DNA from: Actinomycetes bacterium
Lineage (GTDB): Bacteria > Actinomycetota > Acidimicrobiia > Acidimicrobiales > RAAP-2
Direction: 5' to 3'
Length of the DNA stretch: 64,000 nt
NCBI GenBank assembly: GCA_021827705.1
Contig: JAKAUQ010000029.1
Location: forward strand, 1-64,000
In this document: positions 55,338-59,711 of the stretch, in pieces
Layout: each line of letters starts with the position of its first letter
Numbering within the stretch: position 1 is the stretch's first letter
The notes under the pieces: model-generated
What the model was told of the DNA's origin: nothing
Databases searched by the model: none
What the model saw: only the letters and a program-made list of their open reading frames with translations
Position numbers and translations under genes: made by a program

Positions 55338-55916
55338 CTAGACCAGCGAGAGGAACAGCTCGTGGATGCGCGTCTCGCCGGTGAGCTCGGGATGAAACGC
55401 GCAGCCCAGTGCATGACCCTGGCGCACCAGCACGGGCGTGGGGCCTTCGCCGTGGTCGTGGGAGGCCAGAACCGTAACGCCCTCGGCGAACGAGACGATC
55501 TGTGGCGCTCGGATGAAGGCCCCGGCCACCGGACCGATCCCGGCCACCTCCACCACCGTCTCGAAGCTCGCCACCTGACGCCCGAAGCCGTTGCGACGCA
55601 CGTCGACGTCGAGCAGCCCGAGGCTCCACTGGTCCGAGCGCCCGTCGAGGATCCGCCGGGCCATCATGATCAGCCCCGCACAGGTTCCCAGGACGGGCAA
55701 ACCGCCCTCAACCAGCTCGGTGAGCGGCTCGCGCAAGCCCCCCGTGACCAGGAGTCGAGCCATCGTGGTCGACTCACCGCCCGGGATCACCAGCCCACTG
55801 ATTCCCGCCAGGTCCGCCACTCGGCGCACCTCGACGGCCGAGGAGCCGATCCGCTGCAGCACCGCGACGTGCTCGCGCACGTCACCTTGCAGCGCCAGGA
55901 CGCCGACGGACGCCAC
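55338..55916 (-). CDS. pdxT: Pyridoxal 5'-phosphate synthase glutaminase subunit
   Basis: VGVLALQGDVREHVAVLQRIG..LVIPGGESTTMARLL..VLGTCAGLIMMAR..FHPELTGETRIHELFL. Confidence 0.96.
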   Translation of the reverse strand: MASVGVLALQGDVREHVAVLQRIGSSAVEVRRVADLAGISGLVIPGGESTTMARLLVTGGLREPLTELVEGGLPVLGTCAGLIMMARRILDGRSDQWSLGLLDVDVRRNGFGRQVASFETVVEVAGIGPVAGAFIRAPQIVSFAEGVTVLASHDHGEGPTPVLVRQGHALGCAFHPELTGETRIHELFLSLV

Positions 55917-56812
55917 TACCAGCCGCGTTCGGCCAGTCGCTGCTCCAACGTCGCGGTCTCCGAGCCACGCATCGCGGCGCCCAGGCCCGTGGACACCTTG
56001 GCCACCACGCTCGGGTCGCGGAAGTGCGTCGTCGCCTCCACGATGGCCTCGGCCATGCGGACCGGATCTGCGCTCTTGAAGATCCCCGAGCCGACGAACA
56101 CCGCCTCGGCCCCCAGCTGCATCACGAGCGACGCGTCAGCCGGCGTGGCGATGCCGCCCGCACAGAACATCGGCACGGGCAGGTGCCCAGTCTCGGCCAC
56201 CTCGCGCACCAGGGGCAGGGGTGCCTGGAGGTCCTTGGCCAGGCCAGCCAGTTCGGCTGCGTCGGCGCTGTGCACGCGGCGCATCTGCGCGTTGATCGTG
56301 CGCAGGTGGCGCACCGCCTCGACCACGTTTCCCGTGCCCGCCTCGCCCTTGGAGCGGATCAGGCATGCGCCCTCGCCGATGCGTCGCAGAGCTTCGCCCA
56401 AGTTGGTCGCGCCGCACACGAAGGGGACGGTGAAGGCCCACTTGTCGATGTGATGCTCCTCGTCGGCCGGCGTCAGCACCTCGGACTCGTCGACGTAGTC
56501 AACCCCGAGCGACTCGAGGACCTGCGCCTCGGCGAAATGCCCGATGCGAGCCTTGGCCATTACGGGAATCGTCACGGTGGCCTGGATCTCCTGGATCAGC
56601 AGGGGGTCGCTCATGCGCGCCACACCGCCGTCGCGCCGGATGTCCGCCGGCACCCGCTCGAGCGCCATCACCGCCACCGCGCCCGCGTCCTCGGCGATCT
56701 TGGCCTGATCGGCGTTGACCACGTCCATGATCACCCCGCCACGCAGCATGTCTGCGAACCCGCGCTTGACCAGCGTCGAGCCGACCGTCGAACTGTCAGG
56801 GGAAGTCGTCAT
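55916..56812 (-). CDS. pdxS: Pyridoxal 5'-phosphate synthase lyase subunit
   Basis: [92 protein letters not shown]. Confidence 0.97.
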
Positions 56813-56834
56813 AGCCCCAGACTACTGGCCCCGC

Positions 56835-57731
56835 CTACCACTCCTCGAGGGCGCGAGCGCGCACCACGGGGTGGTCGAGATCACCGTCGCGGGGCTCGGC
56901 CTGGCCGCTTCGGGGGTTCAACCACAGGCACCGAGTGGCGTCGTAGTCGACCGTGCAGAAGTACGAGTCGGCGGGTATCTCCTGGTTGCCGCAGCGTCGC
57001 AGCGCCTGGGCCAGCCCGACCGGATAGCGGATCTGCGCTGCGGCGACCTCGTCGGCGCGATACGCCGTTCCCGGTCCCGCCAGGTTCAGCCGATCATCCG
57101 CGTCTCGTCCCACCACGACCGCCGCGCACCCGCGCACCACCAGCCCGAGGCGCTCGCGCGCCAGGCAGTGGGCCACGGCGCCCTCGAGCTCGATGAGGTC
57201 GAAGTCGCGCAGCAGCGCCGTCGTGACCAGGAGGGACTGCCCCGTCTGGTGTCGCACCAAGGCCACGTTGTACGCCTCGTCGCGCACGATCACCGGATGC
57301 ACCCCGCTCACGCCAAAGGTCGCGGTCAGGCGCTCGAGGACCGTGTCCAGGCGATCGCGGTCGTGGGCGTCCCCCCCGTGCGCGAAGCCGGCCGCCATGC
57401 GCGTGCCTAAGTCGGCGCTGCGCCGACGCAGGCGCGCCACGCCCGCCGGCGTCCAGATCCCGTAGGCCAGCACCACCGCGGCGGCCACGACGCCCCACCA
57501 CGCCGTCGCCAGCAGCGCCGCCACAACCAGGCCAATGACGATCAGGGCGACCAGGCTGCTCCAGGCCGCCTGGCGCCGCCAGTACACGCGACGCACCGCC
57601 CCCAGGTTGTGCTCGCGCTCGTGGTGCGCGGGCACGTAGGGGCTCTGCCAGGATGGGTCGAGCACGGGTGCGACGAACGCCCCCGTGCCCGCGCGCGGGC
57701 TGCGCCGTCGAGTGCGCGAGTGGGAGGCCAT
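56835..57731 (-). CDS. Membrane-anchored M48-like protein with degenerate metal-binding motifs
   Basis: TM segment, then LERLTATFGVSGVHPVIVRDEAYNVALVR..SLLVTTALLRDFDLIELEGAVAHCLARERLG..GTAYRADEVAAAQIRYPVGLAQALRRC; layout of M48 proteases with HExxH to HCLAR. Confidence 0.7.
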   Translation of the reverse strand: MASHSRTRRRSPRAGTGAFVAPVLDPSWQSPYVPAHHEREHNLGAVRRVYWRRQAAWSSLVALIVIGLVVAALLATAWWGVVAAAVVLAYGIWTPAGVARLRRRSADLGTRMAAGFAHGGDAHDRDRLDTVLERLTATFGVSGVHPVIVRDEAYNVALVRHQTGQSLLVTTALLRDFDLIELEGAVAHCLARERLGLVVRGCAAVVVGRDADDRLNLAGPGTAYRADEVAAAQIRYPVGLAQALRRCGNQEIPADSYFCTVDYDATRCLWLNPRSGQAEPRDGDLDHPVVRARALEEW

Positions 57732-57741
57732 CGGGTCCAGG

Positions 57742-58842
57742 CTACTGCCGACCCGCGAAGCGCCCACGCGCGCGATCGTAGAGGTCCTCGTAGCGACCCA
57801 CCAGCCGGTCCATCGACCACTGCTCGGCGTACGCGCGGGCGGCAGCCACCCAGTCGGGCCCCGCCGCCAGAGCCTCAGCAATGGCGCGCTCCACGTCGGC
57901 GGCGTCACCGGGCTGGGCCAGGACCGCGTGCCCGCCCGCGGCGTCGCGGTATCCCGGGATGTCACTGGCCACGACGGGGAGCTCGGCGGCCATGGCCTCG
58001 AGGAGCACCAGACCGAAGCTCTCGCGCCCGAGCGCGGGGGCCACCAGCACCGAGGAGCGCCGCAGCCACATCAGCTTGGTGCTCTCATCGGCCGCGCCCA
58101 GGAAATCGAACGCCGGGTCGTGGCCAAAGCGCGCGCGGAGCCCCTCTCCGAGGGGGCCGTCTCCCAGCACGACGCCGCGCCAGGGCGGCGCGCCCCCGGC
58201 GTTGTGGCGAACGACCGCCTCCAGCGCTACGGCGGCTCCCTTGCGCTCCTCCAGTCGCCCGAGCAGGAGGATCGTCGCGACCTCGGGGCGCTGGCGGGCC
58301 TCGCGGCGCAAGCGCGCCGTCTCGAAGCCGTTGAACAGGACGTCGGGATGCACACCGGCGGCTCGGCCCATGGTCTGGGCGGCGGCGGGGCTGACGGCGG
58401 CGACCACGTCGAGGCCGCGGGCCAGCCGGTGCAGCACCGGCGTGGTCCAGCGCGTCGCGGGGCCGGCCCCGGCACGGTGCAGCGTTCCCACACTCGGCGC
58501 CCCGTGGCGCAGCAGGGTGGACCAACCCAACACCGGCGCAAAGGGCTCGTGCAGATGGACGACGGATCCGGGAGCCGCCTCGACCAGGGACCGCAGCTGG
58601 CGCGCGGCACGCCACGAGATGGTGACCGGGGCGCGCGAGCCATTGGCGGGCACCGCCAGCGTCCGGCCCAGCCGGTGGACGTGCGCCGGCGTGTCGGGGG
58701 CCGGGCCCTGCGCGGGTCCGGGGGCCACCAGATCGACGTCGTGGCCCCGCGCGACCAGGACACGGCTCATCGCCAGCGCCTGCTCTTGGACCCCGCCGAA
58801 CGCCGACAGGGAGTAGGGGCACACCAAGATGACGTGGCTCAC
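57742..58842 (-). CDS. pimA: GT4 glycosyltransferase, PimA-like phosphatidyl-myo-inositol mannosyltransferase
   Basis: VILVCPYSLSAFGGVQEQALAMSRVLVARGHDVDLVAPG..HLHEPFAPVLGWSTLL..GRLEERKGAAVALEAV..APALGRESFGLVLLEAMAAELPVVASDIPGYRD; GTG start. Confidence 0.88.
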   Translation of the reverse strand: MSHVILVCPYSLSAFGGVQEQALAMSRVLVARGHDVDLVAPGPAQGPAPDTPAHVHRLGRTLAVPANGSRAPVTISWRAARQLRSLVEAAPGSVVHLHEPFAPVLGWSTLLRHGAPSVGTLHRAGAGPATRWTTPVLHRLARGLDVVAAVSPAAAQTMGRAAGVHPDVLFNGFETARLRREARQRPEVATILLLGRLEERKGAAVALEAVVRHNAGGAPPWRGVVLGDGPLGEGLRARFGHDPAFDFLGAADESTKLMWLRRSSVLVAPALGRESFGLVLLEAMAAELPVVASDIPGYRDAAGGHAVLAQPGDAADVERAIAEALAAGPDWVAAARAYAEQWSMDRLVGRYEDLYDRARGRFAGRQ

Positions 58843-59711
58843 GGCGCGAACCGGGCCTGGAGGACGTGCCACTGCTCGGGCGCGCGGCGAATCAGCCCCT
58901 CCAACTCGATGGCTACCGCCTGGGTCACTCGGGTCACGTCGTCGCGTAGGCGGCCCTGGCGTTCGGCGGCCACCGGAGGCACCACCACGGCGTAGTGCCC
59001 CGATTCTGGCCCGCTGTAGCACGCGGCCACCAGCAGAGTGGCTCCCGTGCGCAGGGCTAGCGTGGCCGGACCAGCTGGCAGGGTCGTGCGCTGCCCGAAG
59101 AACGTCACCTCCACGCCGTTACCCTGCAGATCGCGGTCGCACAGCAGCCCGACCACGCCGCGGTTCCCCAAGTGCTCGAGCAGCGCGGTCCCCGCGTGAT
59201 CATTCAGGGGGATCACGTGGATGCCGATAGCCTCGCGCTCCTGCGCAAACCAGGTGAACATCTCGGGGGGCTCGAGCACCTCCGCCACCGCGGTCATGGG
59301 CAGGTCGATCTGGGCCAAGAAGGCACCGCCCCACTCCCAGCTGCCCATGTGGGGCAGGGCCAGGATCATCCCGCGGCCCCGGGCCCGCGCGTCTTCGAGG
59401 TGGTGGCGACCCTCAACCACGCGGAAGCGGTCCACGACCTCGGAAGGCGGCGTGGCCGGCAGGCGCGCGCCCTCGACCCAGTACTGCGCGTACGAGGCCA
59501 TCGCGCGATCGGCCATCCGCCCCACGAGGGCGTCGGGCGTCTCGCCCCTCGAACCCAGAACGTGACGCAGGTTGGCCGTCAGGGGACGCCGCACGGTCGC
59601 CCGGCGTCCGGCCGCGATCGCCACGCGACGGGCCAGGGCCAGGGCCAGTGACTCGGGCAGCCATCGCAGCACTCGCGCCGTCGCCCGCCAGACGCCGACG
59701 GAGGCCGCCAC
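58839..59711 (-). CDS. patA: Lauroyl-acyltransferase family (PatA-like PIM acyltransferase)
   Basis: SYAQYWVEGARLP..VEGRHHLEDARARGRGMILALPHMGSWEWGGAFLAQIDLPMTAVAEVLEPPEMFTWFAQERE..VGLLCDRDLQGNGVEVTFFGQRTTLPAGPATLALRTGATLL. Confidence 0.87.
   Translation of the reverse strand: MAASVGVWRATARVLRWLPESLALALARRVAIAAGRRATVRRPLTANLRHVLGSRGETPDALVGRMADRAMASYAQYWVEGARLPATPPSEVVDRFRVVEGRHHLEDARARGRGMILALPHMGSWEWGGAFLAQIDLPMTAVAEVLEPPEMFTWFAQEREAIGIHVIPLNDHAGTALLEHLGNRGVVGLLCDRDLQGNGVEVTFFGQRTTLPAGPATLALRTGATLLVAACYSGPESGHYAVVVPPVAAERQGRLRDDVTRVTQAVAIELEGLIRRAPEQWHVLQARFAP

Follow-up and report, generated by a model that had tools for sequence, protein, structure and literature searches.

The pimA-pdxS locus and its HtpX-like gene

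The window, i.e., the whole stretch of 64,000 nucleotides that was analysed, carries an open reading frame of 298 amino acids on its minus strand, which runs from an ATG at 57731 to a stop codon ending at 56835. Only 10 nt separate the pimA stop codon from the start of this frame, termed pseudo-HtpX in the following, and 22 nt its end from the start of pdxS. It belongs to a same-strand run continued by pdxT, yebC, ruvC, ruvA and ruvB on the pdxS side and by patA, pgsA, a HIT protein and thrS on the pimA side; neighbouring genes were named from their ORF translations and established families. An intact frame between pdxS and pimA-patA-pgsA, as proposed in a preliminary description of this DNA, is therefore borne out. 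The features are as follows:

57742–58848, minus strand: pimA-like glycosyltransferase gene directly upstream, start approximate (ORF; constant neighbour)
56835–57731, minus strand: pseudo-HtpX coding sequence, 298 aa (open frame; same-slot orthologues; M48 homology)
55916–56812, minus strand: pdxS, directly downstream (ORF; constant neighbour)
57615–57674, minus strand: N-terminal tail motif VxPVLDPxWQxPYxPxxxER, residues 20–39 (conserved in the genus)
57447–57563, minus strand: predicted TM1-TM2 hairpin, approx. residues 57–95 (AF2 helices; hydrophobic sequence; alignment with HtpX TM1/2)
57249–57272, minus strand: edge strand with N155, residues 154–161 (AF2 strand; N155 in 98% of intact and 97% of site-less sequences)
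57183–57185, minus strand: E183, a Glu in the helix, five residues ahead of the first zinc His (100% of 53 intact and 66 site-less sequences)
57156–57170, minus strand: former HExxH, now H188-C-L-A-R192 (gapless alignment with HELAH/HELSH orthologues)
57051–57065, minus strand: former ExxAD, now A223-Y-R-A-D227 with invariant Asp (alignment with EYRAD/ELRAD orthologues; D227 100%)
57021–57029, minus strand: RYP motif, residues 235–237 (P237 invariant; R235 in 100% of intact and 97% of site-less sequences)
56859–56861, minus strand: R291, Arg of the former HPx4R plug (100% of intact and site-less sequences; HP lost)

Here, site-less sequences (n = 66) are those in which two or more of the four site residues are missing. 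On the opposite strand, an antisense open frame of 390 aa (56024–57196, plus strand) faces pdxS and pseudo-HtpX; such frames are typical of high-GC DNA and its status as a gene is not supported.

Searches with the window protein alone gave little: NCBIfam HtpX matched weakly (residues 57–191, E = 2.9e-4), Pfam M48 did not match, and phmmer against the PDB returned noise only. A Pfam fatty-acid desaturase match (E = 0.05) was rejected as noise over the TM segment. Its M48 identity is settled by its relatives. Intact orthologues in the same slot exceed the Pfam M48 (PF01435) cut-off (e.g., G010:C38, G019:C144, G067:C24). In a 36-member family alignment, 22 sequences match Pfam M48 and 34 an NCBIfam HtpX model, and the profile of this alignment finds the solved HtpX domain (PDB 3cqb) with E = 4.3e-10. 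Two AF2 models, built from six sequences, were of low confidence (mean pLDDT 52 and 55.5) with a weak C-terminal half; the leading Foldseek matches of these weak models are M48 enzymes (3cqb HtpX, 3c37, ZMPSTE24, BepA) at E-values of 0.006–0.07, none below 0.001. Profile and structure searches thus point to the M48 fold suspected beforehand, and we regard it as virtually certain that the window gene is an HtpX (M48) by descent whose zinc and catalytic site has been lost.

The protein shares with HtpX (PF01435; PDB 3cqb) the slot occupied in relatives, the TM1/2 anchor, the strand, E183, D227, RYP and the plug Arg. In contrast, it lacks several features of an active M48/HtpX peptidase: HExxH, the third-ligand Glu, the HP of the HPx4R zinc plug (as defined in PMC7950410) and the TM3/4 hairpin. 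Re-reading of the frame gave exactly the HCLAR and AYRAD coordinates of the preliminary description and its account of the loss: two of three zinc ligands are gone, with Arg in place of the second His and Ala in place of the Glu, and Cys stands where the catalytic Glu was. At the aligned place of the plug, HP is missing, with LD in the window's lineage, and only 30 residues lie between the former HExxH and ExxAD, compared with 67–81 in full-length forms. The N-terminal membrane anchor noted earlier is present, but instead of one segment it appears to be a two-helix hairpin as in HtpX (N-terminal AF2 helices at 36–73 and 77–115). By motif, the edge strand with N155 matches the NA found in the edge strand of BepA (PMC8423444).

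Ahead of the anchor, L24, D25, W28, Y32 and E38 of the tail motif are invariant in 29 sequences of the window's genus. The motif WQxPYxPSxEER is apparently common to this genus and genus g18 (L030: WPPQYGVSTEER); the intact genera g10 and g19 lack it and carry another conserved tail (VVLPPSAETSLFG).

Three forms in one slot and repeated loss of the zinc site

An orthologue is present in the pimA-pdxS slot of 94 of the 101 genomes of the window's family, far more than expected by chance. The order pgsA-patA-pimA-[M48]-pdxS-pdxT-yebC is conserved across the class irrespective of whether the protease is intact, and three forms occupy the slot. Full-length HtpX has 67–81 residues between HExxH and ExxAD, including TM3/4, and is intact in 20 of 20 cases. 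A short form, with about 28–52 residues between the motifs and without the TM3/4 hairpin, has an intact site (n = 33). The third form is short as well and lacks the full site; site losses were seen only among short forms. Since the plug HP is found in 19 of the 20 full-length proteins and has given way to other residues, mostly LD, in nearly all short intact ones, it seems that TM3/4 and the plug were lost before the zinc site. In several relatives with an intact M48 gene, approximately 1.2–1.8 kb with further open frames lie between this gene and pdxS (L098:8297-9466, L108:8861-10015, L059:4810-6375, L062:2234-3998, L066:4717-6002); the window's genus has no such insert.

Every sampled genome of the window's genus (g1) has lost the site, which excludes a local mutation or sequencing error. 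A paralogue swap was likewise excluded, as intact and dead forms share synteny. The loss in the window's lineage covers g1 and the neighbouring genera g7, g14 and g18, and intermediate states occur within it: HELAH/LYRAD (L048), HLLAH/LWEAD (L043, L044) and HGLAH/LLRAD (L030). Intact orthologues had been named at the outset as a possible sign of a purely local change; other genera do keep HExxH, yet the loss is genus-wide and recurs in other families. Two sequences of genus g5 (L060, L065) read QELVH with EFSAD, only the first His being changed, to Gln; this may reflect a loss that happened very recently or a metal site that has changed.

On a FastTree phylogeny of PdxS, YebC, PgsA and PimA, 12 site changes were counted by both Fitch and Dollo methods, and 13 on an IQ-TREE marker tree of 80 taxa, the exact number of losses being uncertain because support is weak for several branches. 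By itself, the M48 gene tree gives 7 changes; probably, fast-evolving dead sequences attract each other there. One single ancient loss is rejected on the marker tree: uniting all site-less forms in one clade, with the constrained group set by motif and not by the tree, lowers lnL by 1108 (p-AU 3.6e-94).

Selection on the dead forms and the arginine at the former His positions

Pairs of dead genes show NG86 dN/dS values of 0.04–0.37, mostly at or below about 0.2 and of the same order as in the neighbouring pimA; for the window gene and its 90% relatives the range is 0.13–0.21. All these values are point estimates, as dS is high in several pairs. The signature of relaxed selection that would have spoken for decay is absent. 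Furthermore, G140, T170, E183, D227, P237 and R291 are identical in all 53 intact and all 66 site-less sequences. Within the genus, conservation is highest, besides the N-tail motif, in the helices of the former active site (mean identity 0.87) and the former ExxAD (0.86) and in the C-terminus (0.78). Passive decay is disfavoured by the dN/dS values and the invariant core residues. What remains is a homologue under purifying selection whose catalytic residues are gone, i.e., a pseudoprotease as judged from its sequence.

The replacement of the lost His residues appears to be biased. Among 64 proteins in which at least one zinc His is lost, Arg occupies the second position in 49 and the first in 11, never both, and neither in 4, so that exactly one Arg is found in 60 of the 64. 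Counted by loss clade on the IQ-TREE phylogeny, 10 of 13 have the Arg; it is absent from three lost lineages (L060/L065, L151, L154) and also from genera g14 and g18. A single transition, of a kind favoured in GC-rich DNA, turns His into Arg, and the excess may be partly mutational for this reason and because lineages are related. The binomial tail for 10 of 13 clades is 0.0001, 0.0025 or 0.02 at an assumed per-clade chance of 0.25, 0.35 or 0.45, so the excess is likely but not overwhelming. Selection on the Arg is favoured by the constancy of R192 in every sampled member of the genus and by codon drift at the His positions over the whole set (CGC, CGT, CGG, CGA, AGG). The Asp of ExxxD touches the first His in thermolysin-like zincins; hence an Arg facing this Asp could keep the two helices joined in the absence of metal. 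That Arg stands in for zinc in this way is, in our judgement, conceivable but slightly more doubtful than probable. We also considered R192 as a relocated R222, which is present in 53 of 53 intact proteins but in only 11 of the 49 whose second His has become Arg; this is suggestive, but it is confounded by the large genus, and we do not claim it.

A probable retained role without cutting and its alternatives

The preliminary description had suggested a retained non-catalytic role instead of decay. Since profile and structure searches point to M48/HtpX, the loss is not local and no relaxed selection is seen, this suggestion is supported, and judged from sequence comparison the gene very probably retains a non-catalytic function. 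As to its nature, the slot gene was inherited vertically from the HtpX of the class between pimA and pdxS and turned into a pseudoprotease, apparently losing first its C-terminal TM3/4 hairpin and the HP plug that contacts zinc and then zinc and catalysis, an order suggested by comparing the living forms. Strict selection acts on the two-helix anchor, the edge strand (N155, T170), E183, D227, RYP and R291. Most likely, the cleft would still hold an extended client peptide on its edge strand without cutting it, while the Arg at one former His position would pair with D227 or E183 and join the two helices in place of zinc. Such a protein could act at the membrane, facing the cytoplasm, as a holdase or as an adaptor handing membrane clients over to another factor, e.g., FtsH or the genome's second, active HtpX, with the tail motif PVLDPxWQxPY as the likely docking site in the window's genus.

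Two precedents and the retained anchor and substrate strand lead us to favour a non-cutting binder or adaptor. In BepA of E. coli, both cutting and chaperone-like activity depend on the equivalent edge strand (PMC8423444), and the protease-dead rhomboid YqgP is an FtsH adaptor whose active site must stay unobstructed (PMC7231995). However, chaperone-like activity is weakened in the protease-dead BepA E137Q (PMC8423444), a point against client holding. On the whole, we consider an HtpX-derived pseudoprotease acting as a predicted non-cutting client binder or adaptor the better-founded explanation and a reasonably probable one, whereas for the specific mode of holding or handing over a putative client the chances appear evenly divided.

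A different role would be that of an inhibitor or heteromeric partner of an active HtpX encoded elsewhere in the genome. The protease activity of HtpX is not missing from this genome, since contig 27 encodes a second, fully intact HtpX with HELSH, RELAAD and HPSLERR, and each sampled genome of the family has at least one intact-scoring M48 gene elsewhere. Inactive members of a family often regulate its active ones, and regulation of this kind is described in a pseudopeptidase review (PMC11266112). Nevertheless, the active HtpX is unlinked, on another contig beside a PspA-like gene, and the pimA-pdxS slot held an active HtpX in relatives that also carry a second copy, so we consider a regulator unlikely. 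The intact gene itself (L001:1477-2382) lies directly downstream of the PspA-like coiled-coil gene and near a purE-like gene; this arrangement suggests a membrane-stress unit. Somewhat less likely still is a scaffold or stabiliser of the PIM pathway that holds PimA, PatA or PgsA at the inner membrane face. The gene directly follows pimA in almost every genome examined, in any catalytic state, and its predicted cytoplasm-facing topology would suit the peripheral PimA, but pdxS, pdxT and yebC accompany it just as constantly, most of the class has an active HtpX in the slot, and position is the sole link, also for the PIM/PLP connection raised in the preliminary description.

The tight spacing of 10 and 22 nt would also fit a gene without specific function that decays slowly, its frame being kept by translational coupling to the downstream pdxS, and some dead forms at the order level do diverge fast (L155/L157, dN/dS 0.37). 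But coupling guards a frame and not its residues; given dN/dS values of 0.04–0.2 in most pairs and six cleft residues invariant over 66 dead sequences, this explanation is very improbable. The least credible proposal is an enzyme that still works, with a different nucleophile or with metal bound at another site: neither H188 nor D227 varies within the genus, but no extra ligand or nucleophile is conserved, the residue at C189 can be C, L, G or V, and other dead lineages have lost H188.

Known proteins compare with the non-cutting client binder proposed here as follows. BepA shares the M48 cleft, an edge strand with a non-cutting role (PMC8423444) and a Foldseek match, but it is periplasmic and active and has a TPR domain and a His switch, whereas the window protein is membrane-anchored and, from its sequence, has lost catalysis. 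Rhomboid pseudoproteases (iRhoms, Derlins) and YqgP likewise show a membrane protease family yielding non-cutting adaptors (PMC7231995); they differ in the fold and chemistry of a serine intramembrane protease, whereas here a bacterial zinc protease underwent many separate losses. Other inactive metallopeptidase homologues also kept zinc peptidase folds for binding after loss of catalysis (PMC11266112). M48, HtpX and Ste24 are unmentioned in the text of that 2024 review, and no publication joining HtpX/M48 with pseudoprotease or pseudoenzyme was found in the literature searched, which mostly left subscription papers outside; an HtpX/M48 pseudoprotease therefore appears to be new, provisionally. 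More tentatively, HtpX may have become a cleft that holds clients without metal about a dozen times within one bacterial class and by the same route, with the hairpin and plug lost first, zinc second and usually one salt bridge gained between the invariant Asp and an Arg at either His position, a generalisation we rate as rather speculative. If true, the conversion of a zinc protease into a stable pseudoprotease would follow a repeatable structural rule. One orthologous locus offers a natural series of a full active enzyme, a short active form and a dead form, with many separate losses, which makes it possible to test the roles of a membrane zinc protease besides cutting, and the residues that keep a zinc cleft standing without zinc.
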